Assembly (NCBI GenBank): GCA_020725675.1 | Contig: DYEP01000142.1 | Location: 1-42,451 of the forward strand | Direction: 5' to 3' | Length of the DNA stretch: 42,451 bases | Origin: Symbiobacterium sp. | GTDB lineage: Bacteria; Bacillota; Sulfobacillia; DUSP01; DYEP01 | Part shown: one piece after another, positions 1 to 40,325 of the stretch | Layout of the letters: the number at the start of each line of letters is the position of its first letter | Position numbering within the stretch: position 1 is the first letter of the stretch | The notes under the pieces: model-generated | Seen by the model: only the letters and a program-made list of their open reading frames with translations | Databases searched by the model: none | Told to the model about the DNA's origin: nothing | Translations under genes and position numbers: made by a program

Positions 1-840
1 CCACAGATTCTGCAAGTCACCGAGCCTGCAATTGCGCCAGGTCACCGTGCCATGCAGCCTGCAAGGCTTGCACAATCAGGCGACCCGGCTGACCCAAAAA
101 GATTGAAAAACGGGGTGACATCTATCTCGCAAGACAACACCTTATCTCACACAAAATCCCGGACAAGGGCTTGTTCTAAAGGGGCTAGGGTTGTATCTCT
201 GCCAGGCATAGATGAGGAGACCTTTATTCGCATCTCTGAAGTCGATTACGAGGAGATATTGCACCAGACTGCCTATGTCTCTTTCGTTCTTGATAGGGGT
301 AAGACTGCAACGATCCTGGGGGAAAATGGTGAGAAGCTTACTATGGAGATAGGGGGGAGGAAGTCGGTTGTAGACACAGGCATGTATCATCGGAAAGGGG
401 ATTTTGGCAATCTGCCGGCGGGTGAAGCTTATATTGCTCCGGTAGAAGGAACTGCAAATGGTGTGGTCACGGTGGACGGAAGCATAGCAGGAGTCGGGTT
501 ACTTAATGAACCAGTGCAACTGGAGTTCACGAATGGTAGGGCTGTAGATATTCGAGGAGGCGAAGCTGCAGCGAGCCTGTACCGGTTAATTCAACCTGTA
601 GGTGAAATGGGCACGAACCTTGCTGAATTGGGCGTCGGAACGAACAGTGCTGCCAGACTTACAGGGCTGATACTGGAAGATGAAAAAGTGGCTGGCACGG
701 TTCATGTTGCACTTGGGGCTAATGCCACATTTGGTGGCAAGGTTCAGGTTCCGTGTCATCTAGATCTTGTAATTAGAAAGCCTACAGTATTGATTGACGA
801 GATACTCTTGATAGATAGAGGAAGCCTAATTGTTCAGTAG
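1..840 (+). CDS. M29 (aminopeptidase T-like) family protein, 5'-truncated by window edge
   Basis: Frame is open from base 1 to TAG at 838-840; motifs NTLSHTKSRxxACSKGARVVSLPGI, GNLPAGEAYIAP and HLDL are typical of M29 metallopeptidases. The true start is probably upstream of the window. Confidence 0.75.
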   Translation, partial: PQILQVTEPAIAPGHRAMQPARLAQSGDPADPKRLKNGVTSISQDNTLSHTKSRTRACSKGARVVSLPGIDEETFIRISEVDYEEILHQTAYVSFVLDRGKTATILGENGEKLTMEIGGRKSVVDTGMYHRKGDFGNLPAGEAYIAPVEGTANGVVTVDGSIAGVGLLNEPVQLEFTNGRAVDIRGGEAAASLYRLIQPVGEMGTNLAELGVGTNSAARLTGLILEDEKVAGTVHVALGANATFGGKVQVPCHLDLVIRKPTVLIDEILLIDRGSLIVQ

Positions 841-897
841 TCCCTGCTTTCTGGATTGGCATCTGACCATCGACATTCTTATGAGGGAGTGAGTCTA

Positions 898-2217
898 GTG
901 GTGAGCCAAGAGATTGGGAGCCAATTAATTGATGTTCATGGGGATCATGCAGTCACTCCTGTAACGCCAGCAGAGCGAAGAAGCACTCTCGATGTAGCAT
1001 TGGTTGCTGCCGGTTTCTGTATATGCATGTCCGGCTTATTTACCGGGGCCGCAATGGCCGCTGGCCTAAACCTGCGGCAGGCAGTTCTTGCCACGATTGT
1101 CGGAAACCTCATTTTGGCTTTGTACGGGGGTCTATTAGGAGCTGCAGGAGCGCGTGAGGGTGTAGGAACAGCTATGCTCTCAAGGCATTCCTTTGGACGA
1201 AAAGGCTCAATGGTAATTGGTGCCGTACTAGCAATAACCATGCTGGGGTGGTACTCTGTTCAGGTTGGGTTCTTCGGAATGACGATTAATGCCATGTTTT
1301 CTAATGGGGGGTTTATTACAGCACCTAAAGTGGCAGCACTTTGGGGCGGAGTCCTGATGATGATAACCGCTTACTACGGCTACAAAGGTTTGAGCGTTCT
1401 TAGCAAGATTGCCATTCCTGCTATCATCGTGACTTCCATAATAGGCATTGGTGCTGCTGTAACACAGTCAGGTGGCTGGTCAAGACTCCTTGCTGTAGAA
1501 CCCCCTTCAGAAATGAGCATCAGTGCGGGAATTGTATTAGCTGTTGGATCGTTTGCCGCTGGGGCTTCCGCACAGGCTGATATAACCCGTTATGCAAAAT
1601 CATCTTCGGCTGCGTGGATTGCAACGATATTTGGATTTGTGGTGGCAAACACGTTTGTCATCATTGCCGGCTCCATTACTAATTTGGCCACAGGGTCAGG
1701 CGATCTACCTTCTGCCATGCTGTCTCTTGGACTCGGTTTCCCGGCTTTGATCGTCTTGATTGCAGGCCAGTGGACTACCAACGACAACAATCTTTATACA
1801 TCGTCTTTAGGTTTGTCTAATATTTTCAAAGCAAAAAAGTCCAGAATTGTACTACTTGGCGGATCTTTAGCCACGCTTATAGGTGTAGCAGGTCTTGCAG
1901 ACTACTTTGTATCCTGGTTGATTCTGCTGGGAGTCACAATTCCGCCCATGGCAGGGATCATTATTGTCGATTACTGGATAGTTAAGAAGGGCCAATACCA
2001 CTACGGTCCAGGTACCCAATACTCAGACGTATACTGGCCGGCCTTTGTTGCCTGGCTCTTAGCTTCACTAGTTGGCTATTATGCTACAATTGGCATCGCC
2101 TCCCTCACCAGTTTGGTTTTAGGAGGTGTGTTCTACCTTGCCATTCATTACGCAGTCAAAGCAGCCAAGATAAGCGGTGCCATAGGAAGTACCATAGAAG
2201 ATGAGACTGGTTTCTAA
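898..2217 (+). CDS. NCS1 family nucleobase/cytosine-purine permease (CodB-like)
   Basis: Multi-TM protein with AGFCICMSGLFTGAAMAAGLNLRQA and GQWTTNDNNLYTSSLGLSN motifs typical of the NCS1 family; GAGGGAG SD before GTG 898/901 (ORF track extends to TTG 856). Confidence 0.85.
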   Translation: MVSQEIGSQLIDVHGDHAVTPVTPAERRSTLDVALVAAGFCICMSGLFTGAAMAAGLNLRQAVLATIVGNLILALYGGLLGAAGAREGVGTAMLSRHSFGRKGSMVIGAVLAITMLGWYSVQVGFFGMTINAMFSNGGFITAPKVAALWGGVLMMITAYYGYKGLSVLSKIAIPAIIVTSIIGIGAAVTQSGGWSRLLAVEPPSEMSISAGIVLAVGSFAAGASAQADITRYAKSSSAAWIATIFGFVVANTFVIIAGSITNLATGSGDLPSAMLSLGLGFPALIVLIAGQWTTNDNNLYTSSLGLSNIFKAKKSRIVLLGGSLATLIGVAGLADYFVSWLILLGVTIPPMAGIIIVDYWIVKKGQYHYGPGTQYSDVYWPAFVAWLLASLVGYYATIGIASLTSLVLGGVFYLAIHYAVKAAKISGAIGSTIEDETGF

Positions 2218-2249
2218 GTTACCGAGTCATCTCTTGGGGAGGTAATGAT

Positions 2250-3296
2250 ATGCCTACACGTCTTGACTTGGAATTAAGTGCTGCCGCACATAAACTGATT
2301 CGCGAGCAGATCAGGCTAAGACCTAACGAGAGTGTTCTAATTACCACTGATTCGGTTAGTGATTTCCGCGTGGCAGAAGAGATAGCCAAAGCAGCAGAAA
2401 GTGCTGGGGGAAGAGTGATGCTGGCATGGCACTCAACCCCAGAGGGCTATGGTCGAGTGACTGAAGCCTACCTGCCAGAACCTCTTCTGGCTTGCACTTC
2501 CAGCACAGATGTGTGGATTGAATTGAACAATCAGTGGCTGCTCTACTCTAGTCCCTGGAATAAAGCAGTAACCAATGGAAGAACTCGCCAGGTTATGTTA
2601 GGCGGCTTGACCGTGGAACAACTCGTCCGGTGTATTGGAAAAATAGATATTCAAGCACAGAAAGAATTTCAGGACAAGATAGTTGCTCTAACTAAAGGAG
2701 CCAAAAGAATGAGAATAACAAATGATGCTGGCACGGACGTGTCCTTTGAGAATGACCCGAGAAGACCAGTGACAAACGAGATCATGTACGATAAACCGGG
2801 AGGACATTTCCTTTTGGGGCAAATCGGCTGGGCACCTGTAGAGGAGACAATTAACGGGACAATTGCATTTGACGGAGCAATATCTGGTGGAGGAGAGGCA
2901 GAAATAGGGGTTCTTGATGAAGTTATCGTCTACTTAGTAGAAAAAGGTACTATCAAGGATATTCAGGGAGGGGCTAAGGCAAATATCATAAGGAGGTGGT
3001 TTGAAAAGCTTGCTGATCCCAACATGTATGTAGCTGCGCACGTATGCTACGGATTTAACCCGGGTGCTAGGCTTGAAGGGACTACTACCGAAGATGAGCG
3101 GGTATGGGGAAGCACAGAATGGGGCTTTGGTTATCAAGGGCCAATGTATTCTGGCGGTGATGCCAGGGAAGCCAAAAGCCACATAGACGGGGTATGTCTC
3201 AATTGCTCTGTTTGGCTCGATGACCAACAGTTACTAGACCGTGGCAGGATTGTCCACCCTGAAGTGGTAAACCTCGCAAGTAGGCTACGAAAGTGA
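2250..3296 (+). CDS. M29-like metallopeptidase/NicX-like family protein
   Basis: 348 aa, GGGAGGT SD; SVLITTDSVSDFRVAEEIAKAAESAGG, GxGEAEIGVLDE and H-x-D near the C-terminus resemble the COG2309-type fold; about co-linear with the next ORF pair. Confidence 0.7.
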   Translation: MPTRLDLELSAAAHKLIREQIRLRPNESVLITTDSVSDFRVAEEIAKAAESAGGRVMLAWHSTPEGYGRVTEAYLPEPLLACTSSTDVWIELNNQWLLYSSPWNKAVTNGRTRQVMLGGLTVEQLVRCIGKIDIQAQKEFQDKIVALTKGAKRMRITNDAGTDVSFENDPRRPVTNEIMYDKPGGHFLLGQIGWAPVEETINGTIAFDGAISGGGEAEIGVLDEVIVYLVEKGTIKDIQGGAKANIIRRWFEKLADPNMYVAAHVCYGFNPGARLEGTTTEDERVWGSTEWGFGYQGPMYSGGDAREAKSHIDGVCLNCSVWLDDQQLLDRGRIVHPEVVNLASRLRK

Positions 3297-3319
3297 CAAT
3301 GCGGTCGGGGGGCTTGGAT

Positions 3320-4364
3320 ATGTCAATTCGTTTTGGACTAGAACTAGCACGGTGCGGCTGGACCGTATCAAAGCACCTAGCCTGTGTGAAAAAAGGTGAG
3401 AGTGTTCTCATCACAGTTGATTCTTCGGGAGATTTCAGGGTTGCTGAAGAGATAGCAAAAGCCGCGGCGAGTTTAGGCGCAAAGGTTTGCGTTGCATGGC
3501 ACTCAACGCCAGGGGGTTACGGGAAGGTTGCTGATGCTAGCCTGCCTGATGCTGTCAAGAGTGCTGTTGAAAATACCGACGTATGGATTGAACTCAATGA
3601 CCAGTGGTTGATGTTCTCGAGCCCCTGGGAGCAAGCAATGAACAATAGACGCACCAGGTATTTGTTCATGGGGGGCTTACGTACGGAGCATGTGGTAAGG
3701 TGCATATCCAGGTTGAATTTTGAGGTTCAGCGGGATTTTCAGAACCTGCTTGTAAAGAGAATTAGTGAGACAAAGACAATGCGTTTCACTACTCCTGCAG
3801 GGACTGACGTTGTATTCGAGAACAAACCTTCAAGACCAATTGCCAATGAAATCTGCGCAGATACACCTGGCCCTCACTACCTGATCGGCCAGATAGGTTG
3901 GGCACCTGATGAGAGTAGTATTAATGGCAAGGTGGTACTAGACTGTTCCTTCTATGGTGGTGGTGAAGCCGACTTAGGTATACTTGAAGAACCGGTGGAA
4001 CTTATTATAAGGGGGGGGAGAAATAGTACAGATATCCGGAGGGCGAAAGGCAGAGTTCATCTCCAGTTGGCTGGAGAGTTTTGGAGATAAAGGAATGTAC
4101 ACTGTTGCTCATGTCTCGTTTGGATTCTTGCCGCACGCGAAGCCTAGCGGCATCTGTACAGAGGATGAGCGCACATGGGGAATCAACATGTGGGGCTTTG
4201 GTTATCAGGGACCTATGTACTCTGGAGGAGAACCGAGGGCAGCTTCCACTCATGCAGACGGAATAGGGTTGAATACATCTGTATGGATGGACGGCGAATT
4301 GATCATGGATAAGGGCACGATGGTAGATAAGGAATTGAGGGGCCTGGAATTGCTTCTCAGATAA
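3320..4364 (+). pseudogene. Second M29-like paralogue, split by a +1 frameshift in a G8 tract (ORFs 3293-4090 and 4095-4364)
   Basis: Removing one G from 4011-4018 restores LIIRGGEIVQISGGRKAEFISSWLESFGDKGMYTVAHV..., co-linear with the intact upstream paralogue (VYLVEKGTIKDIQGGAKANIIRRWFEKLADPNMYVAAHV). Confidence 0.8.
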
Positions 4365-4390
4365 AGTACTGCAACGGAAACAACATTATT

Positions 4391-4435
4391 GGAGGCTGGC
4401 GACATATCCAACTGTGGCCAGCTCCTTGTTTGTAG
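4391..4435 (+). terminator. Putative intrinsic terminator of the M29/NCS1 cluster
   Basis: GGAG(g)CTGGC ... GCCAGCTCC stem (one bulged G) followed by TTGTTTGT, just after the last stop codon. Confidence 0.5.
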
Positions 4436-4790
4436 GCCGACATGAGCGTTAACTTAGTAGGGACAATCTACTGCAGGTAAGGCAGTACCCGCGTTCAGTT
4501 CATAGGCAGCATTGACCGTATTTGGGCTGTTTCAAGTCATTAACAGGAAAGTTTTGGTATGACGTGTTGTAATCCGTTTTCCTTTATAATGATACAGAAG
4601 CTCTACTCTGATCAAACCACTACTCCGCGCGCCGATGCTGCCGAACGCCAACTAGACCCTCGTCATTTTCTAACGTACCCTTGAAGTACAGCTTCGTACG
4701 CGCCTTAGCCCACGGTCCGCACTGACAGAATTTGAATCTTGGTCGGGTCAATGATAATAACGCAACACCTTAATATAATTAATATAGAGC

Positions 4791-4820
4791 TTGACATTAT
4801 TGATTTTTGCAGGTTAAAAT
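4791..4820 (+). promoter_or_regulatory. Putative sigma-A promoter for the DUF2089 gene
   Basis: TTGACA (4791-4796), 18-nt spacer, TAAAAT (4815-4820), just upstream of AGGAGG. Confidence 0.55.
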
Positions 4821-4831
4821 GATCCCAGGAG

Positions 4832-5221
4832 GTGGTAATCCTGACTATAAGGGAGGCGCCGGGCACTTGTCCCGTATGCGGCCATAAACTAGAGATTAAA
4901 CGCCTGCATTGCAGGCACTGTGATACAGCGCTGGAAGGCAGTTTTTTGACTTGCAGGTTCTGTCAGCTGAACAAAGAACAGCGGGAGTTTGTTGAGATAT
5001 TTATCAAGTCAAGGGGGAACATCAAAGAAGTCGAAAGGGAGATGGGCATATCTTACCCGACTGTGCGGAACCGTCTTGATGGGGTGATCACTGCTCTTGG
5101 GTACAAGATAGAGCCTCAGCCTGAAGAAGAAAAGGTGAATACGAAGAGGAAGGAGATTCTTGACGCAGTTAGCCGCGGGGAGATGAGCGCTCAGGAAGCG
5201 CTGAAGCTACTAAAGAAATGA
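4832..5221 (+). CDS. DUF2089 domain-containing protein (zinc-ribbon plus HTH)
   Basis: CPVCGHKLEIKRLHCRHCDT zinc ribbon, then REFVEIFIKSRGNIKEVEREMGISYPTVRNRLDGVITALGY HTH; SD AGGAGG at 4827-4832 suggests the real start is downstream, possibly CTG 4841. Confidence 0.85.
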   Translation: MVILTIREAPGTCPVCGHKLEIKRLHCRHCDTALEGSFLTCRFCQLNKEQREFVEIFIKSRGNIKEVEREMGISYPTVRNRLDGVITALGYKIEPQPEEEKVNTKRKEILDAVSRGEMSAQEALKLLKK

Positions 5222-5245
5222 AACACTCTGAGAGGAGATACTGAT

Positions 5246-5608
5246 ATGGAAGAAGAACGTCTACAGATACTCAGAATGGTACAAGAGGGTAAGGTGACGC
5301 CGGAGGAAGGAGCAAAACTGCTAGAGGCATTAGAATCTGAACCTCCAACAGCTAGGGCCACAAGCCAATGGCTTAGAGTTCGCGTCTTTGATGAAAAACA
5401 GAACAAGTTGAAAGTGAACGTTAACGTGCCCATTAACCTTGTCAAGTTGTTTGGTAGATTTATTCCCACCAAGGAACTGGAGGCAAAAGGCTTGGGCCCA
5501 CTTAACATGGATGAAATAGTAGAAATGGTGAAGACGGGTGCGCAGGGTAAGCTCGTCGATGTATACGACGATGAAGAGGGAGTACGTGTGGAGATATTTG
5601 TAGAATAG
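5246..5608 (+). CDS. YvlB/LiaX N-terminal SHOCT-like domain protein
   Basis: MEEERLQILRMVQEGKVTPEEGAKLLEALE N-terminal motif; GAGGAGA SD. Confidence 0.7.
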   Translation: MEEERLQILRMVQEGKVTPEEGAKLLEALESEPPTARATSQWLRVRVFDEKQNKLKVNVNVPINLVKLFGRFIPTKELEAKGLGPLNMDEIVEMVKTGAQGKLVDVYDDEEGVRVEIFVE

Positions 5609-5843
5609 CCATGTCGATAGGGTCTGAAGCTCAAAGAATGAATGATGCACTTTCCGTCAGTTGAAAAGCTCCGTTGTGCGGAAAGCATCCAGGAGCCCTG
5701 CCAACGTGCAAGGATCTGCCGGCTCACGACTATCCATTGAGGATCAATACACGAGCACTTGATAGATAAGACAAGATGTGTTTTTGCTACCGAGGGTGGC
5801 TCAAGACAAGATCCCCAGACGACGTGTTCTGGAGTGAATTGGT

Positions 5844-6194
5844 ATGAGGAGATTCCTTCATAGAGTCCTAGTTAACCTGATCGCTCTGTACCTGGCCTCT
5901 TTGCTCTTGCCTTCTGCTGTATACGTTCAGACAACGGGCACTCTGCTGTGGGCATCACTGGTGCTTGCAGTGGTCAACTCAGTGGTAAGGCCACTGGTTA
6001 TCGTTCTTACACTACCCATCAACTTTCTTACGCTCGGATTATTTACCTTCGTAGTCAACGGTCTCATGGTATACTTGACCTCAGTGCTGGTAACCGATTT
6101 CACTGTCGCGGGACTGCTTTCCGCAATTTTCGTATCTCTGACCGTCAGCGTGGTGAACCTGCTGCTGTCCACAACAGGAGGTAATAGGGCTTGA
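5844..6194 (+). CDS. Phage holin family 4-like (YvlD-type) membrane protein
   Basis: 116 aa, four hydrophobic segments, AVVNSVVRPLVIVLTLPINFLTLGLFTFVVNGLMVYL motif typical of the YvlD family. Confidence 0.8.
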   Translation: MRRFLHRVLVNLIALYLASLLLPSAVYVQTTGTLLWASLVLAVVNSVVRPLVIVLTLPINFLTLGLFTFVVNGLMVYLTSVLVTDFTVAGLLSAIFVSLTVSVVNLLLSTTGGNRA

Positions 6195-26931: not shown

Positions 26932-27549
26932 ATGAATCATCTCAACCTGTCCCGTTATGAGGGCGAATGGCTTTCATTTGCCCAGACGGTTGAGGCCGAA
27001 GGGGGGAAGAAAGTCCTAAGCTGTTACCAGTGCGGGAAGTGTTCGGCCGGCTGCCCCTTGTCGTTTGCCATGGAGCAGCAGCCGCATCAGGTGATGCGCA
27101 TGGTACAACTTGGGCTTTCCGACAGGGCCCTTCAGAGCCCCACCATCTGGCGATGCGCAGGCTGCTTTACATGCACTACTCGGTGTCCGCGCGGAGTGGA
27201 TATCGCAGGAGTCATGTCTGCGCTCAGGGTCATCGCTCTCGCAAGAAACGTCCGGACGTCAAGACGCGCCCAGGCGTTTCACAAGGTATTCCTTTCCCTG
27301 ATCAAGAGGTACGGCAGGATCAATGAGTTCGAGTTGGTGGTAAGGTACAAGCTCGCTTCCATGAACCTGTTTCAGGACCTGGACCTCGGGCTCCGCATGT
27401 TCATGCAGGGCAAACTGAAGCCACCACGGGGCATCGCCGGAGTGAGACAAGTACGCGCTCTGTTCCGGCACGAGAAAGGAGGAGGAAAGAGAAGTGGGCT
27501 ACGCCTACTACCCGGGTTGCAGCTTACACGGCACCGCGAAGGAGTATGA
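26932..27549 (+). CDS. hdrC: Heterodisulfide reductase subunit C-like 4Fe-4S protein
   Basis: CYQCGKCSAGCPLSFAM and CAGCFTCTTRCPRGVDI motifs; precedes hdrB. Confidence 0.9.
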   Translation: MNHLNLSRYEGEWLSFAQTVEAEGGKKVLSCYQCGKCSAGCPLSFAMEQQPHQVMRMVQLGLSDRALQSPTIWRCAGCFTCTTRCPRGVDIAGVMSALRVIALARNVRTSRRAQAFHKVFLSLIKRYGRINEFELVVRYKLASMNLFQDLDLGLRMFMQGKLKPPRGIAGVRQVRALFRHEKGGGKRSGLRLLPGLQLTRHREGV

Positions 27550-28339
27550 TATGTCTTCCCGGGCGTGCCTTGACTTCCTCGGCATCCAGTACCGGGAGCT
27601 CCCGGACTGGAGCTGTTGCGGCGCGTCCTCGGCCCATAGCGTCGACCACACGCTGGCCGTTTCTCTTCCTGCAAGAAATCTCACCCTTGCTGAACAAATG
27701 AACCTGCCTCTGATGACGCCCTGCGCTGCATGTTACAGTAGACTGCGCGGGGCTCACCATGCGCTCCGTAGCGATCCTGGTCTCGCAAAGAAGGTACTGA
27801 CAGTACTTGGCAGTGAGTACAAGGGCCGCTATGAGCCGCTTTCAATTCTTGACGTGCTTTACCAGTACGGCCCCGAAGCCGTGGGGGAAAAGGTCACAAA
27901 GAAGCTTAAAGAGCTGAGAGTGGCCTGCTACTACGGTTGTCTTCTGCTCAGACCCCCGGACTACGCCAAGTTCGATGACCCGGAGAACCCGGGCAAGATG
28001 GAGAGACTGGTCGAGACTACGGGGGCAAGCGCAGTTGATTGGCCCCACCGCACCGAGTGCTGTGGCGCAAGCCTTTCCTTGTCCGATACGAAGCTGGTAG
28101 TTTCGCTTGCTACCTCCATTGTGGACATGGCAGTTCGCCACGGCGCCGAGTGCATCGTCACAGCCTGCCCCATGTGTCAGGCAAACCTGGATATGAGGCA
28201 GCGCGGGCGGACAAAGTTGCCAGTGTATTACGTTACCGAGCTCCTGGGGCTGGCCTTCGGTCTTGAGCCGAAGCGTCTGGGTTTGACCACGCATATGGTC
28301 AATGCCATAAGCCTCCTCAGGGCAAAGCAGCTGGCATAG
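27494..28339 (+). CDS. hdrB: Heterodisulfide reductase subunit B-like (two CCG domains)
   Basis: YYPGCSLHGTAKEYD...WSCCGASSAHS...PCAACYSRL; CYYGCLLLRP...ECCGASLS...ACPMCQANLD. Confidence 0.93.
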   Translation: MGYAYYPGCSLHGTAKEYDMSSRACLDFLGIQYRELPDWSCCGASSAHSVDHTLAVSLPARNLTLAEQMNLPLMTPCAACYSRLRGAHHALRSDPGLAKKVLTVLGSEYKGRYEPLSILDVLYQYGPEAVGEKVTKKLKELRVACYYGCLLLRPPDYAKFDDPENPGKMERLVETTGASAVDWPHRTECCGASLSLSDTKLVVSLATSIVDMAVRHGAECIVTACPMCQANLDMRQRGRTKLPVYYVTELLGLAFGLEPKRLGLTTHMVNAISLLRAKQLA

Positions 28340-28351
28340 GGGGCGATACAT

Positions 28352-30328
28352 GTGATACGCGTTGGTGTATTCGTCTGCTGGTGCGGTTCGAACATCGCCG
28401 GAACTGTGGACGTGGGCAAAGTAGCGGAGGAGGCGGCGCGGATACCTGGCGTGGTGCACGTGGAACAGAATAAGTATACGTGCTCTGACCCGGGCCAGGA
28501 CTCTATCAGAAAGGCCATAAAAGAGCACCGTCTGGATCGGGTGGTGGTAGCCGCCTGTTCACCGCGGATGCACGAGAACACGTTCAGGAAATGTGCGGCG
28601 TCAGCGGGACTCAACCCTTACCTTGTAGAGATGGCGAATATCAGGGAGCATTGTTCCTGGGTACACAGCGATATGTCTGTGTCCACGCCCAAAGCGGTTG
28701 ACATTGTGCGCCGTGCTGTAGCGAAAGTGAAAAGATGTGTCCCGCTTCATCCCTCCACCATACCGGTGGAGAAAAGGGCCTTGGTCATTGGCGGAGGTAT
28801 TGCAGGGATACAGGCTGCGCTTGATATAGCGGAAGCAGGTTACGATGTGACTGTCGTCGAGCGGGAACCTACCATCGGAGGGCGCATGGCGCAGCTGGAC
28901 AAGACCTTCCCTACGCTTGACTGTTCCTCCTGTATCCTGACTCCCAAAATGGTGGATGCGGCTTCGCACCCCGGCATCCGCATATTGACGTATGCCGAAG
29001 TGGAGGAGATCAGCGGTTACGTGGGCAATTTTGAGGTGCGCGTGCGGAAGCGTGCAAGGTCCGTAGATGAAGCCCGGTGCACCGCATGCGGCATCTGCAT
29101 CTTGAAATGTCCTACCAGCCGGGATTCCGAGTTCAATATGGGCCTTGGTACCCGCAAGGCCATATACATGCCTTTCCCTCAGGCCGTTCCAAACAAACCT
29201 ACCATTGACAGGGAGATCTGCAGGCATTTTACTGCGGGCAAGTGTGGGATTTGTCAGAAGGTGTGCCCCTCCGGCGCCGTGGACTTCAGCCAGGAGGACC
29301 AGGTGCTGACGGAAAAGTTCGGAGCAGTGGTGGCAGCCACAGGCGCCACGCAATTCTCAGTGGAAGTATATGGTGAATACGGCTATGGCAGGTACCCGGA
29401 CGTGATCACAGGGCTTGAACTCGAGCGGCTCATCAGTTCCACCGGGCCTACTGACGGGAAGATCAGGCGGCCCTCTGACGGCAAGATACCCAAGACCGTG
29501 GTGTTCATAAAATGTGTGGGATCCCGGGATGAAAACAAAGGATATCCATACTGCTCCAAGGCCTGCTGCATGTACACGGCTAAACACGCCATCCTGCTCA
29601 AAGAGAAGATACCCAGCGCCAGCGCTTACGTGTTCTACATGGACGTGCGGGCCGGAGGTAAAGACTACGAGGAATTCTACAAGCGTTCCCAGGAAATGGG
29701 TACAAGGTATGTGCGAGGCAGGGTATCCCGGATTTATCCGCTGGACGGCAAATTGATCGTGCAGGGCGAGGATACGTTGCTTGGCGAGCGGGTAGAGGTG
29801 GAAGCGGACCTGGTTGTGCTGGCCGCTGCCATGGTACCCCAGCCCGATGCACCCGAGATGGCCAGGAAACTGGGCATTTCATATAACCAGTACGGCTTTT
29901 TCAGTGAAGCGCACCCGAAGCTGCGGCCGGTCGAGACCAACACTGCCGGCGTATTTCTGGCAGGTACGTGCCAGGGACCCAAGGACATACCCGAAACGGT
30001 GGCGCAGGCCAGCGCCGCGGCGGCCAAAGTGATATCCCTTTTTGCCAAGTCGGAGCTATCTACAAACCCCAACGTCGCCTCGGTGGATGAATCGCTCTGC
30101 TCAGGGTGCCTTTGGTGTTCAAATGTATGTCCATACAAGGCCATAGAAGAAAAGATTATTACGGAACGCGCGGGGAAAGAAACCGTCACCCGCACTGTGG
30201 CGTCGGTCAATACAGGGTTGTGTCAGGGCTGTGGTGCCTGCACGGTTGCATGCAGAGACGGCGCCATGAACCTCCTTGGATTCACTAATGAACAGATCCT
30301 GGCGGAGGTGGAAGCGTTATGTCTTTAG
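28352..30328 (+). CDS. hdrA: Heterodisulfide reductase subunit A-like flavin/iron-sulfur protein
   Basis: VGVFVCWCGSNIAGTVDV, ALVIGGGIAGIQAALDIAEAGYDVTVVEREPTIGGRMAQLDKTFPTLDCSSCILTPKM, several CxxCxxCxxxC motifs. Confidence 0.95.
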   Translation: MIRVGVFVCWCGSNIAGTVDVGKVAEEAARIPGVVHVEQNKYTCSDPGQDSIRKAIKEHRLDRVVVAACSPRMHENTFRKCAASAGLNPYLVEMANIREHCSWVHSDMSVSTPKAVDIVRRAVAKVKRCVPLHPSTIPVEKRALVIGGGIAGIQAALDIAEAGYDVTVVEREPTIGGRMAQLDKTFPTLDCSSCILTPKMVDAASHPGIRILTYAEVEEISGYVGNFEVRVRKRARSVDEARCTACGICILKCPTSRDSEFNMGLGTRKAIYMPFPQAVPNKPTIDREICRHFTAGKCGICQKVCPSGAVDFSQEDQVLTEKFGAVVAATGATQFSVEVYGEYGYGRYPDVITGLELERLISSTGPTDGKIRRPSDGKIPKTVVFIKCVGSRDENKGYPYCSKACCMYTAKHAILLKEKIPSASAYVFYMDVRAGGKDYEEFYKRSQEMGTRYVRGRVSRIYPLDGKLIVQGEDTLLGERVEVEADLVVLAAAMVPQPDAPEMARKLGISYNQYGFFSEAHPKLRPVETNTAGVFLAGTCQGPKDIPETVAQASAAAAKVISLFAKSELSTNPNVASVDESLCSGCLWCSNVCPYKAIEEKIITERAGKETVTRTVASVNTGLCQGCGACTVACRDGAMNLLGFTNEQILAEVEALCL

Positions 30329-30741
30329 ACTGGCAGCCGAAAATCGTAGGCTTTACGTGCAACTGGTGCAGCTACGCCGGAGCAGACCTTGCTGGAACCA
30401 GCAGAATGAGCTATCCTGCCAGCGTCAGGATCATCCGCGTTCCGTGTTCGGGACGGATAAACCCCGTCTTTGTGATCAGGGCGTTCCAGCGTGGTGCCGA
30501 TGGTGTGTTGGTGGCGGGCTGTCACCCGGGCGACTGTCACTACTCCACGGGAAACATGTATGCGCGAAGAAGGTTTCTGATCGCACGGAGGTTTATGGAA
30601 TACCTGGGGATGGACCCCGCGCGGCTTGAGATCCACTGGATCAGCGCCTCGGAGGGACAGAAATTCCAGGAAGTGATAAAGAACATGACAGATAGGATCC
30701 ACGCCATGGGACCCAACAGAAAGATGAGGGAGATACTATGA
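30319..30741 (+). CDS. MvhD/FlxD-like iron-sulfur electron-transfer subunit
   Basis: GFTCNWCSYAGADLAGTSRMSYP...RIIRVPCSGRINP...GADGVLVAGCHPGDCHYSTGN. Confidence 0.95.
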   Translation: MSLDWQPKIVGFTCNWCSYAGADLAGTSRMSYPASVRIIRVPCSGRINPVFVIRAFQRGADGVLVAGCHPGDCHYSTGNMYARRRFLIARRFMEYLGMDPARLEIHWISASEGQKFQEVIKNMTDRIHAMGPNRKMREIL

Positions 30742-31682
30742 ACGACTTGAGAGAACAACTGAAAGAAGCTGTGGCTTCGGCCTTCTCCCAGGGCAGGGTC
30801 CGTTCGTTTGTCTGCTTGGAAAGAGGTTTTTACCCGTTTGCCACAATGCCCGCCATACTGCACTCAGGAAGCGATGCAGACCGGGTCGAGATCGGTCTTG
30901 CAGACGCTCCGCTTTTGGCAAAGTATCTCCTGGACATGCCAAAACCGGCCGGTATTGTGGTCAGGAGCTGTGATGCGTTAGGCGTGTCCCGGCTCATCCG
31001 CGACAGGAGGGTAAAGCGGGAAGACCTATATATCATATCTATCAGCTGTCCCGGCGTGGTAGATACGGCGAAAATCCCAATGAGCATGCACCGGATCACC
31101 GCGCTTGAAAAGGCAGGCGACGCGCTCATTGTTCACACTGCTTTGGGCCCTACTGAGCTGCCGTGGTCGTCGGTGCTGCTTGACCGCTGCCTGGCGTGTG
31201 TATCAGGGGCGGCGTCGACCGATGCGGACGTGGTGTTGGACGACGGGAGAGGAAAACCGCCGGCGCCGGTGGATTACTCCGAAATCGATGAAGTGGAGCA
31301 TATGGCTCCGGATGAGAGATATGCCATGTGGGAGAAGGAATTCGCGAAATGTATCAGGTGTTTTGCTTGCAGGAACGCCTGTCCCGCATGCAGCTGCAGG
31401 AAATGCTCGCTGGATCTGCCAGAACCGGAATGGCTTTCGCGTGCGGTTATCTTACCCGAGCAGTTCATGTTCCATTTTACCCGTGCGTATCACGTAGCAG
31501 GGCGCTGCGTAGGCTGCGGGGAGTGCGAGCGCGCCTGCCCCGTAGGACTACCTCTTATGAAGCTGAACCGGAAGTTTACCAGGGATATCGAGACACTCTT
31601 CGGGGTGGATGACGCAAGGATACCCAGGGATGTGGAAGTGCTGGGTACCTTTTTGCCGGACGACCCCGAGGAGTTCTGTTAG
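30738..31682 (+). CDS. 4Fe-4S dicluster protein, FlxB/FlxC-type
   Basis: CIRCFACRNACPACSCRKC and CVGCGECERACPVGLPL; ATGA-type overlap; operon position. Confidence 0.75.
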   Translation: MNDLREQLKEAVASAFSQGRVRSFVCLERGFYPFATMPAILHSGSDADRVEIGLADAPLLAKYLLDMPKPAGIVVRSCDALGVSRLIRDRRVKREDLYIISISCPGVVDTAKIPMSMHRITALEKAGDALIVHTALGPTELPWSSVLLDRCLACVSGAASTDADVVLDDGRGKPPAPVDYSEIDEVEHMAPDERYAMWEKEFAKCIRCFACRNACPACSCRKCSLDLPEPEWLSRAVILPEQFMFHFTRAYHVAGRCVGCGECERACPVGLPLMKLNRKFTRDIETLFGVDDARIPRDVEVLGTFLPDDPEEFC

Positions 31683-31694
31683 GAGGTGGGCGCG

Positions 31695-32708
31695 GTGCTG
31701 CACATATCCAAGCACAATCTGTTGAGTTTACTTACGCACGCCTCGAGCAGCTGGCAAGTATTCTGCCCGTCAAAGCAGGGCTCAACAGTGAATTTCGGTT
31801 GGTTTGAAGGCACGGTGGACACGGTCGCAATTCCGGTCAATTCATGTAAGGGTGCGTTCCTTCCCCAGACTGAAGAGCTGTTCACTTACCGTGGGACGCC
31901 TGAGACAGGCCTTTCTCTCACAGGCGGGTTTGATGGGCAAAAGCCTGTACTGATCTTCTTTGCGCGTCCTTGCGACGCGAGAGCACTCACCCTCCTTGAT
32001 AGGGTGTTCCTTGAAGGAGAGTATGCCGATGACAGGTACAGGAGTCGTCGTGCCCGTTCGGTGGTTGTCACCGTTGGATGCAAGTCGCCGCTTGACACGT
32101 GTTTCTGCACAGCCTTCGGGATCGGTCCTGACAGCAAGGCAGGCAGTGACGTATTTGTATACGAGGACGAAACCTCCCTGTATTTCGAGCCGTTGACAGA
32201 GGGGGGCGCTGGATTTGTTGCTGCGCACTTAGCGTACCTAGCAGAGGGCGGTACACCTGTTTCAGTGATGGAAGAACTGCGGCGTGCTGAACTCCCTCTG
32301 GCCGGGCGGATATGGGTAGAGGGTATGGCGGAGATGCTCGACAGCATGTTCGACCACCCAGTGTGGGAGAAGATGTCTGCGCGGTGCCGAGGCTGCGGCG
32401 CCTGTACGTACCTTTGTCCCACTTGCTACTGCTTTTCAGTATTCGACGCTCCAAGGGGCACGCACGGCAAGCGATACAGGTCGTGGGACAGCTGCCAATT
32501 CTCCGATTTCATGCTGATGGCCGGCGGGCACAACCCGCGGCCGACCCGCAAGGAACGGGTACGCCAGCGCTTTATGCACAAATTCAACTACGGCGTAAAG
32601 AGGCAGGGCGACTACCTCTGTGTGGGCTGCGGCCGTTGCATCCGGGCGTGTTCTGTTGGGCTGCATGCGGCGTCAGCGCTTTTTGACCTGAAGGAGGCGG
32701 GACGATGA
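31695..32708 (+). CDS. 4Fe-4S dicluster protein, FlxB/FlxC or sulfhydrogenase beta-like
   Basis: CRGCGACTYLCPTCYCFSVFD and CVGCGRCIRACSVGLH; AGGAGG SD 8 nt before GTG 31695. Confidence 0.8.
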   Translation: MLHISKHNLLSLLTHASSSWQVFCPSKQGSTVNFGWFEGTVDTVAIPVNSCKGAFLPQTEELFTYRGTPETGLSLTGGFDGQKPVLIFFARPCDARALTLLDRVFLEGEYADDRYRSRRARSVVVTVGCKSPLDTCFCTAFGIGPDSKAGSDVFVYEDETSLYFEPLTEGGAGFVAAHLAYLAEGGTPVSVMEELRRAELPLAGRIWVEGMAEMLDSMFDHPVWEKMSARCRGCGACTYLCPTCYCFSVFDAPRGTHGKRYRSWDSCQFSDFMLMAGGHNPRPTRKERVRQRFMHKFNYGVKRQGDYLCVGCGRCIRACSVGLHAASALFDLKEAGR

Positions 32709-33532
32709 AAGCGCTCTTGATTCCAGGTCTGGCAAGGATCGAGTCGGTCAGGGACGAGACAGCTGCAGGGGATGTGAAGACCTTCACTGTCCAGTTCCTG
32801 GACGAAAAGGATAGATTCGACTACATGCCCGGACAGTGTGCCATGCTGTCAGTCATAGGCGTGGGTGAGTGCATGATATCGATCACTTCATCGCCCACCC
32901 GGGACCGGATGCAGTTTTCGGTGAAGAAATCAGGACGTGTGACCTCCGCCCTTCACGAGCTCGAGGCGGGACATACCGTGGGGGTTAGGGGCCCTTATGG
33001 GAACGGATTTGCTGTCAATGAGTGGCGGAATAAACGGCTGTTGTTCATTGCGGGCGGGATCGGTCTTGCTCCTTTGAGATCTGCTATCAATTACTGCTTG
33101 GATAACAGGGAGGACTATGGACCCATCCAGATTATATACGGGGCCAGGTCTCCGGGGGATTTGTGTTTCAAAGACGAGATCTTCAAGAACTGGCCTGGCT
33201 TTCCTGAAACACAGGTACAAGTGACTGTGGATAAGGGAGATGAAAGCTGGAATGGTCCTCAGGGATTCGTTCCAAGTTTCTTAAAAGAAATAGCGCCGAG
33301 TCCGGACAATGCGGTGGCGGTAACCTGCGGTCCTCCCATAATGATTAAGTTCGTATTACAGGCGCTTTCGGAATTGGGATTTGGCGACGAGCAGGTCGTG
33401 ACTACGTTGGAATTGAAGATGCAGTGTGGAGTCGGTAAGTGCGGGCGGTGCAACATCGGACACAAGTACGTGTGTGTAGACGGCCCCGTGTTCACGCTCT
33501 CTCAGCTCAGGGCTCTTCCCGCAGAATATTGA
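32705..33532 (+). CDS. FAD/NAD(P)-binding oxidoreductase, FlxA-type
   Basis: YMPGQCAMLSVIGVGE, LFIAGGIGLAPLRSAINY, IIYGARSPGDLCFKDE, C-terminal 2Fe-2S-like CGVGKCGRCNIGHKYVCVDGPVFT. Confidence 0.88.
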   Translation: MKALLIPGLARIESVRDETAAGDVKTFTVQFLDEKDRFDYMPGQCAMLSVIGVGECMISITSSPTRDRMQFSVKKSGRVTSALHELEAGHTVGVRGPYGNGFAVNEWRNKRLLFIAGGIGLAPLRSAINYCLDNREDYGPIQIIYGARSPGDLCFKDEIFKNWPGFPETQVQVTVDKGDESWNGPQGFVPSFLKEIAPSPDNAVAVTCGPPIMIKFVLQALSELGFGDEQVVTTLELKMQCGVGKCGRCNIGHKYVCVDGPVFTLSQLRALPAEY

Positions 33533-33583: not shown

Positions 33584-34549
33584 ATGCTAAGTCGATTTGA
33601 GGTGTTGCACGAATTACTATCAGACGAGCTGGCCTGTGTCGATACAGAGATTGGAGAGATACTTGAGTGCAACCACCACCTGCTTAATGAGGCCGTTCGT
33701 CACCTGCGGGAGAGTGGTGGAAAGAGGTTCAGACCTGCGCTGCTTTTGCTCACAGCCAGGATATCGGGTGCTTCCAGGGAAGCGAGGATCCCTGCAGCTG
33801 CGGCAGTCGAGATTATGCACATGGCCACGCTTATTCACGACGACATAGTGGACAACGCAAGGCTACGGAGGGGGCGGCCGACAGTCAACGCCCTCTGGGG
33901 TAATAACCTGTCTATTCTTTCAGGGGATTTTATGTTCGCGCGCGCCTTCTCCGCCCTGGCGGAGTTTTTCCGTCCCGAATTCCTGGTGAACATGAGCAAG
34001 GTAGTCTCTGAAATGTGCCTCGGAGAGATTCACCAGAATTTTCGGAAGGAAAGGTTAAACGTAACCGAGGAAGAATATTTGTTAAGGATAGAACAAAAGA
34101 CCGCTCTGTTTATCGGCGAATGCTGCCGTCTGGGTGCCATGCTGTCAGGGGCTTGCAACAGTTTGGCAGACAGGTTTTTTGACTACGGCAGGTTTATAGG
34201 TATGGCGTTCCAAATCACCGACGATCTGCTGGACCTGGGATACGGCGGTTCGTCAGGAAAGGAGGTGGGCAAAGACTTACAGCAGGGGGTACTCACACTG
34301 CCGGTCATTCACGCGCTGGGAGGACAGCATGGAGAGACGCTTCGGAAGATGCTTTCTGGAGATATTATACCTTCGGCCAGTCATGAGGTCCTCAGGATCC
34401 TCGAACTTGGTGGATCTATCGGATATGCGAGAGATATGGCACGCTCGTTTGCCGATAAAGCCAGGGAGGTCCTGACTGGTCTGCCGGAATCCCCAGAAAA
34501 GCGGGCGCTTGAGTCGGCGTGTGAGTTTGTTCTGGAACGTCACTCCTAG
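33584..34549 (+). CDS. Polyprenyl diphosphate synthase (heptaprenyl synthase component II-like)
   Basis: GGKRFRPALLLL, LIHDDIVDNARLRRGRPT, FQITDDLLDL (both Asp-rich motifs). Confidence 0.92.
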   Translation: MLSRFEVLHELLSDELACVDTEIGEILECNHHLLNEAVRHLRESGGKRFRPALLLLTARISGASREARIPAAAAVEIMHMATLIHDDIVDNARLRRGRPTVNALWGNNLSILSGDFMFARAFSALAEFFRPEFLVNMSKVVSEMCLGEIHQNFRKERLNVTEEEYLLRIEQKTALFIGECCRLGAMLSGACNSLADRFFDYGRFIGMAFQITDDLLDLGYGGSSGKEVGKDLQQGVLTLPVIHALGGQHGETLRKMLSGDIIPSASHEVLRILELGGSIGYARDMARSFADKAREVLTGLPESPEKRALESACEFVLERHS

Positions 34550-34571
34550 TTTATCTACAGGAGGGAGAGCG

Positions 34572-35198
34572 GTGCCGAGAAACAGGATACCCGAAGCAAC
34601 AATCAGGAGGCTTCCTATTTATCTTAGAACCCTCTCAGACCTGGTAGACGATCAGGTAGAGGTAATCTCATCGGCCGAGCTGGCTGAGAAGACGGGTTTT
34701 TCCTCTGAGCAAATCAGAAAAGATTTAGCCTATTTTGGTGCGTTTGGGGTGAGAGGTGTGGGATATTCCACATCTCACCTGAGCCAGTGCTTAAGAAGGA
34801 TCCTTGGACTGCACAAAGAGGTCAAGGCGGTGCTAGTTGGCGCTGGACACCTGGGCACTGCGCTCGCACGTTACAACATTACGAGGCATAAGGACGTGAG
34901 GATCACCGCGATTTTTGACTCGGACCCGCAAAAGACAGGGCAATACATTGAAGGGGTGCCTATCAGGCCAATCGGGGAGATGAAAGAGACCATTAAGCGG
35001 GAAGGTATAAAGATGGGTATCATCGCGGTGCCTGCGCCAGAGGCCCAGAAGGTAGCACTGAAGCTGAAGGAGGCGGGCGTTGAAGCCATTTTGAATTTTG
35101 CGCCAACCAAAATCGTGCCTCCGGAAGGGACTTTTGTTCAAAACGTAGATCTTACCCTGGAGCTGCAGAGCCTCGCTTACTATGTCAATCGCGAGTAG
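34572..35198 (+). CDS. rex: Redox-sensing transcriptional repressor Rex
   Basis: RIPEATIRRLPIYLRTLSDL...FSSEQIRKDLAYFGAFGVRGVGYSTSHL; VLVGAGHLGTALARY; GTG start after GGAGGGAG. Confidence 0.95.
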   Translation: MPRNRIPEATIRRLPIYLRTLSDLVDDQVEVISSAELAEKTGFSSEQIRKDLAYFGAFGVRGVGYSTSHLSQCLRRILGLHKEVKAVLVGAGHLGTALARYNITRHKDVRITAIFDSDPQKTGQYIEGVPIRPIGEMKETIKREGIKMGIIAVPAPEAQKVALKLKEAGVEAILNFAPTKIVPPEGTFVQNVDLTLELQSLAYYVNRE

Positions 35199-40118: not shown

Positions 40119-40164
40119 AAAGCATAATGGATAGTAAAAGAGCTGCAAGTCAGGTGTGGGCAGA

Positions 40165-40325
40165 CTTAATGAGCGCCTGAACTCGCTAGTTGTTGCGAGT
40201 GGACGAGGTCGGGGTTTATCGAAGATTCGGCGGATGCCCCGCGGCGGATCACCAGCCGTAAGACGTTCCTCAAATCCCTCGGGCGACCGTGGGGACAACA
40301 GGGACCGGGTGGCCAGGAAGAGCCT
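40165..40325 (+). ncRNA. glmS ribozyme: glmS ribozyme (GlcN6P-responsive self-cleaving leader)
   Basis: Conserved blocks in the glmM-glmS leader: AGCGCCtGAACT, GACGAGGtcGGGGTTTATCGAagaTTCGGCGGATGCCCC, CACCAGCCGTAAGacgTTCcTCAAA; predicted cleavage A40172|G40173. The 3' boundary is approximate. Confidence 0.93.

Follow-up and report, generated by a model that had tools for sequence, protein, structure and literature searches.

The seven-subunit FlxABCD-HdrABC complex of Desulfovibrio vulgaris Hildenborough, described by Ramos et al. (2015) and Ferreira et al. (2023) (cited after PMC5296606 and PMC10920352), has DsrC as its partner, and genetic and proteomic data support its role in NADH-oxidising electron bifurcation, with a reversal proposed during fermentation (PMC10920352). 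An hdr-first operon, hdrCBA-flxDCBA, has been described in Bilophila wadsworthia (PMC12125255), a flx-hdr cluster lies in the genome of Syntrophomonas BUT1, which has no DsrC (PMC6687939), and fumarate-linked flx-hdr clusters have also been published (PMC7282089; PMC6315080). Here we describe an hdrCBA-flxDBCA operon of Symbiobacterium sp. (assembly GCA_020725675.1), found in a stretch of 42,451 nucleotides of contig DYEP01000142.1 that was analysed as a whole and is called the window below. Judged from its sequence, the operon is predicted to encode an FlxABCD-HdrABC complex of the described family, and we discuss which high-potential acceptor such a complex could serve.

The locus has the same seven subunits in one cluster as D. 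vulgaris, with the NADH input, the HdrA flavin and the HdrB CCG clusters, but its hdr genes stand first and its host has no DsrC, a comparison based on the published descriptions. It shares with B. wadsworthia the hdr-first order with flxA last, whereas the B. wadsworthia host is sulfidogenic and the flx genes of the window run D-B-C-A, although the naming of B and C may vary among papers. Syntrophomonas BUT1 resembles the host, by description and not by sequence, in having a complete cluster in a DsrC-less member of the Bacillota, but BUT1 is a butyrate syntroph. The "succinate operon" of Pseudoclostridium thermosuccinogenes (PMC7282089) contains the same bifurcating module flanked by fumarase and fumarate reductase, neither of which is near the operon in the window. 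In the methanogen complexes HdrABC-MvhAGD and FdhAB-HdrABC (5odc, 7bkb, 8rvu), HdrA, HdrB and HdrC are homologous and FdhB has the fold of FlxB, but in the window the NADH module FlxA/FlxC takes the place of the catalytic subunits of hydrogenase or formate dehydrogenase, and CoM-S-S-CoB is not expected in this bacterium. HdrCBA and MvhD are shared with MetVF-HdrCBA-MvhD of Moorella and Sporomusa (PMC9430772), whereas the window lacks MetV/MetF and its 658-aa HdrA, with an inserted ferredoxin domain, is not of the enlarged kind. The sHdr-LbpA systems (hdrC1B1A-hyp-hdrC2B2 plus LbpA with N- and C-terminal cysteines) differ in that the operon of the window has no lbpA and a second host locus, on contig C49, has one HdrBC pair only. 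Thus, neither the hdr-first order, known from Bilophila, nor the absence of DsrC, known from Syntrophomonas BUT1, is new, and the operon by itself is not surprising and mostly ordinary. New here are its assignment to a lineage that we call type H, the finding that the proposed partners are missing genome-wide, an FdhB-like fold for FlxB, and a lead towards a lipoyl carrier.

Results

Seven intact open reading frames (ORFs) are closely packed on the + strand at 26932-33532 in the order hdrCBA-flxDBCA (Table 1), with gaps from hdrC to flxA of -56, 12, -10, -4, 3 and -4 bp and with subunit lengths in line with those of relatives. A first-pass annotation had read them as HdrC, HdrB, HdrA, an MvhD-like protein, two 4Fe-4S proteins and an FAD/NAD(P) subunit forming one FlxABCD-HdrABC unit, hdr first and flxA last; the ORFs and the Pfam and NCBIfam matches agree with this reading, all seven subunits being present in one cluster with their cofactor motifs. 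The grouping is not a matter of chance, because the full seven-gene set is co-located in 19 further genomes of the class. The host genome is a fragmented metagenome-assembled genome (MAG) of 2.56 Mb in 253 contigs (completeness 99.2%, contamination 1.6%), examined by profile searches and chosen DNA stretches; three genomes were compared for its order and 154 for its class. FlxB is present in 33 of these 154 genomes, and its named relatives are mostly from uncultured Bacillota/Clostridia MAGs. The only match to the FlpD family in the host genome is flxD. Promoter and terminator scans at the locus gave results no better than shuffled sequence. The candidate start of flxC is a GTG in frame at position 31695, which lies about 8 nt 3' of an AGGAGG and appears more likely than 31686, where the open frame begins.

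Table 1. Genes of the operon and its neighbours in the window, and two lipoyl-protein operons in other stretches
Feature	Position	Strand	Description and best evidence
hdrC	26932..27549	+	205 aa; two [4Fe-4S] motifs; long C-terminal part of type H kind; Pfam/NCBIfam; 8rvv_C 1.5e-18
hdrB	27494..28339	+	281 aa; two CCG domains; Pfam/NCBIfam; 5odc_B 6.6e-42
hdrA	28352..30328	+	658 aa; FAD domain, inserted ferredoxin domain, two C-terminal [4Fe-4S] motifs; 5odc_A 8e-223
flxD (MvhD/FlpD family)	30319..30741	+	140 aa; PF02662 2.3e-55
flxB, FdhB-like electron-input subunit	30738..31682	+	314 aa; two [4Fe-4S] motifs; 7bkb_E 2.5e-22
flxC, HydB/AsrA-like Fe-S subunit	31695..32708 (open frame from 31686)	+	PF17179 1.5e-32; 9nez_B 1.2e-37
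flxA, FAD-/NAD(P)-binding subunit	32705..33532	+	275 aa; C-terminal [2Fe-2S] motif; 9nez_C 8.5e-60
polyprenyl (heptaprenyl-type) diphosphate synthase	33584..34549	+	PF00348 2.9e-64; putative link to complex
rex, redox-sensing repressor	34509..35198 (open frame; true start probably further in)	+	NCBIfam 3.1e-80
C49 operon	L029:8391-12752 (G000:C49, host)		ArsR-type regulator, DsrE, DsrE, DsrH, GcvH-like lipoyl protein, HdrC2, HdrB2, lipoate-protein ligase
G026 flx operon	L155:549-12495 (G026:C3)		glcD, glcF, ldhH-like, GcvH-like lipoyl protein, HdrC-CCG fusion, hdrA, flxDBCA, in one run

Residues 3-655 of HdrA align with HdrA of M. thermolithotrophicus (5odc_A), in which E356 and K409 distinguish bifurcating from non-bifurcating flavins (PMC9430772). 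In this alignment they correspond to E358 and K411 of the window, so that the residues of the bifurcating flavin, on which the first-pass reading depended, are present; together with cysteines 388, 401, 405 and 406 they are identical in all 31 aligned rows. Both CCG domains of HdrB, which the annotation had described as intact, keep all ten ligands of the non-cubane clusters (C9, C41, C42, C77 and C80; C149, C189, C190, C225 and C228), and these cysteines are conserved in the alignment across type H and type F relatives (see below). HdrC resembles archaeal HdrC chains such as 8rvv_C, and FlxC and FlxA correspond to the NAD(P)H module of sulfhydrogenase 1 (9nez), FlxC matching its beta and FlxA its gamma subunit. 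Family matches of FlxB are weak, but its C-terminal part aligns with FdhB, the subunit that docks on Hdr complexes (7bkb_E), and Foldseek matched an AlphaFold model of FlxB (mean pLDDT 80.7) to 7bkb_E (TM 0.71) and 8rvu_E (TM 0.70). The fifth gene was named FlxB because of this FdhB-like fold and the sixth FlxC because it is HydB/AsrA-like; with FlxA as the seventh, the flx order is resolved as D-B-C-A. From the model, FlxB would occupy the electron-input position beside FlxD and HdrA, and FlxA presumably uses NADH rather than NADPH.

We consider it likely that a cytoplasmic FlxABCD-HdrABC complex oxidises NADH and splits the electrons between ferredoxin and a higher-potential acceptor, most likely of the disulfide type. 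FlxA would accept a hydride from NADH, and the electrons would pass through the iron-sulfur clusters of FlxC and FlxB and the [2Fe-2S] cluster of FlxD to the HdrA flavin, where the pair would be bifurcated. One electron would reach ferredoxin through the ferredoxin domains of HdrA, and the other would travel through HdrC and the two non-cubane clusters of HdrB to the acceptor. Reduced ferredoxin could then feed Rnf or [FeFe] hydrogenase, and the flow may reverse during fermentation. Calculated at standard potentials, the reaction is downhill once the acceptor lies above about -220 mV, with about -29 kJ/mol for menaquinone, -49 for fumarate and -15 for CoM-S-S-CoB (potentials as in PMC5861303). 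Two points weigh against bifurcation as proposed here: it is impossible without a high-potential partner, for which there are at present only candidates, and HdrABC homologues alone are insufficient proof of it (PMC5861303).

Two kinds of hdrCBA-flxDBCA occur in the class, as seen when the genes in the DNA around its FlxB genes were labelled by BLAST against the proteins of the window and of locus L010. Genes for fumarase and malic enzyme precede the operon in type F (12 genomes), and/or genes for an Fe-S protein and for a TfrA-like flavoprotein follow it, wherever the contig is long enough; this context is the known "succinate operon" kind. In type H (19 genomes including the window), HdrC is longer and fumarate genes are absent; a polyprenyl diphosphate synthase lies directly 3' of flxA in 15 of the 19 (nine families), and rex also adjoins in seven. 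Where HdrB was lost at a contig end, the type was assigned from gene context (G141 and G148 as H; G078, G081, G152 and G153 as F). In the HdrB tree, type F is a clade with support 100/99 and a long stem, and the type H rows, window included, fall outside it. Because the tree was rooted at midpoint, with no D. vulgaris sequences in it, and many type H forks are unresolved, we claim from it only that type F is distinct. Linked FrdA (E < 1e-180) was found in 13 genomes of the class, all of them carriers of FlxB, namely 11 of the 12 type F and 2 of the 19 type H genomes (Fisher p 1e-5, kinship ignored). Both order-mates of the host carry type F, not H. The class also has flx clusters whose HdrA proteins are very large (about 1,000-1,550 aa). 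Second flx clusters (L011, L012, L151, L152 and L158-L161) encode HdrA-like proteins in the range of about 1,470-1,550 aa and carry additional HdrA/FlxD/HdrC-like genes; flxDBCA without adjoining hdr genes was seen in L153 (G004:C16) and at L039:9537-12826.

The search for the acceptor covered the partners proposed for related complexes. The first-pass annotation had noted no DsrC or MetV/MetF nearby, which extends to the whole genome: the 99.2%-complete host genome has no match to PF04358 (DsrC) and none to PF02219 (MetF). Five of the 154 class genomes have DsrC, four of them type H carriers, and the host is not among them; DsrC, although the disulfide partner in D. vulgaris, does not define the family. 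Beside the operon there is neither fumarase nor a TfrA-like fumarate reductase, and the host genome contains no FrdA of the linked type. Its best FrdA-like match (1.4e-48), the sole such gene looked at, lies within a nad gene cluster and resembles L-aspartate oxidase, so fumarate reductase was rejected as partner. Sulfite reductase was rejected as well, the single NIR_SIR match being not DsrAB but a 288-aa protein (L032:5022-5888, host contig C27) in which part of a nitrite/sulfite reductase domain is joined to a 4Fe-4S dicluster and a PCP_red domain. As to hydrogenase, the annotation was right that none stands at the locus, but the genome holds four [FeFe]-hydrogenase matches, and Rnf genes are present. 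The [NiFe] subunits MvhA and MvhG are not in the operon, which is followed by the polyprenyl synthase gene and rex, a negative that concerns this locus only since no genome-wide [NiFe] search was run.

Outside lactate/glycolate-oxidase-type proteins, the host has only one HdrB-like gene besides that of the operon, in the C49 operon (Table 1). The stretch read there has a single HdrBC pair and no HdrA, its base composition fits the host genome, and no close relative of its HdrB2 occurs elsewhere in the class, the next best reaching 35%. Genes of lysine fermentation type (lysine aminomutase-like) share the contig. In the class-mate G026, a GcvH-like lipoyl protein is encoded within the flx operon itself (Table 1). 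The lipoyl proteins of G026 and C49 are 47% identical. ESGKW occurs in both and in the carrier encoded by a genuine sHdr-like cluster, but both lack the N-/C-terminal cysteine pair reported for LbpA of sulfur oxidisers. That cluster (HdrA, HdrC, HdrB and lipoyl carrier; L166:7106-12110, G097:C195) belongs to a class member without FlxB. These observations suggest, as a weak lead, that lipoyl carriers may act as partners of Flx-Hdr modules.

Among the remaining features, a hand-made Rex score gave Rex-like palindromes 5' of hdrC at nine of the 18 type H loci (L135-L138, L140-L142, L144 and L149), with shuffle p values for single loci of up to 0.025 before any correction. The same score finds no palindrome for the operon of the window (p 0.9), and Rex control of it was rejected. 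A glmS riboswitch/ribozyme lies 5' of glmS at 40161-40318 of the window (Rfam RF00234, 96 bits). The G+C content is about 48% in positions 1-6000 and 53-58% across most of the remaining window.

Discussion

The alternative that survives best is that the complex is mainly confurcating, so that NAD+ is reduced jointly by reduced ferredoxin and a second donor near -200 mV, a dithiol or another compound, which we regard as unlikely. It agrees with the reversal proposed for D. vulgaris (PMC10920352) and with the glcD/glcF/ldhH-type genes in the flx operon of G026. The host also has glcD-glcF-LUD-ldhH genes on contig C222, but this is a contig other than that of the operon, and sequence cannot reveal the direction of flow. 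The potential of lactate is near -190 mV, which fits confurcation.

It is improbable that menaquinone, not a disulfide, is the high-potential acceptor reached through HdrBC, with the adjoining polyprenyl diphosphate synthase making the quinone tail. The calculated energy would allow it, the synthase gene follows flxA in most type H genomes, and in NCBIfam HdrB scores highest with SdhE of methylmenaquinol:fumarate reductase (205 bits; CoB-CoM HdrB reaches 180, and both are under the cut-off). However, direct comparison places HdrB with the soluble archaeal HdrB of solved complexes, the operon has no membrane subunit, and despite the SdhE score neither the SdhA flavoprotein nor SdhB of an SdhABE-type enzyme lies beside hdrB. 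The synthase could also be old synteny, as cdaA, ybbR, glmM and glmS further 3' are kept in some relatives too.

We also speculate that a lipoylated, H-protein-like carrier is the thiol/disulfide partner of Flx-Hdr in DsrC-less Clostridia-like bacteria, which would make the complex a lipoyl-linked bifurcase or confurcase, but we give this idea a low probability. Lipoamide was rejected as a simple acceptor for bifurcation from NADH, being too reducing at about +14 kJ/mol (standard potentials, with the lipoamide potential taken from general knowledge); on energetic grounds a confurcase is thus the more likely of its two forms. The related MetVF-Hdr enzyme of Sporomusa did not respond to free lipoate or dihydrolipoate (PMC9430772), which speaks against the simple lipoyl version. 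In the open-access literature, which leaves out most subscription papers, we found no report that ties lipoyl proteins to flx genes.

It is very improbable that fumarate is the acceptor by way of the TfrA-like FrdAB that accompanies type F operons: fumarase/malic enzyme and/or FrdBA adjoin the operon in eleven type F genomes including the order-mate G002, the other order-mate, G001, encodes the same FrdA on another contig, and two type H genomes are among the 13 Flx carriers with such an FrdA, but the host has none and the HdrB of the window lies outside the type F clade.

NADH-driven bifurcation to ferredoxin and a disulfide-type acceptor remains our preferred reading of the operon. Flx-Hdr complexes are widespread among anaerobes, the partner is known only for those with DsrC, and fumarate has been proposed for a second group. 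In this class, HdrB lineages separate by genomic partner, that is, by whether a fumarate reductase accompanies them. A complete and conserved machine in a host without DsrC or a linked fumarate reductase makes the question of the acceptor concrete and testable.

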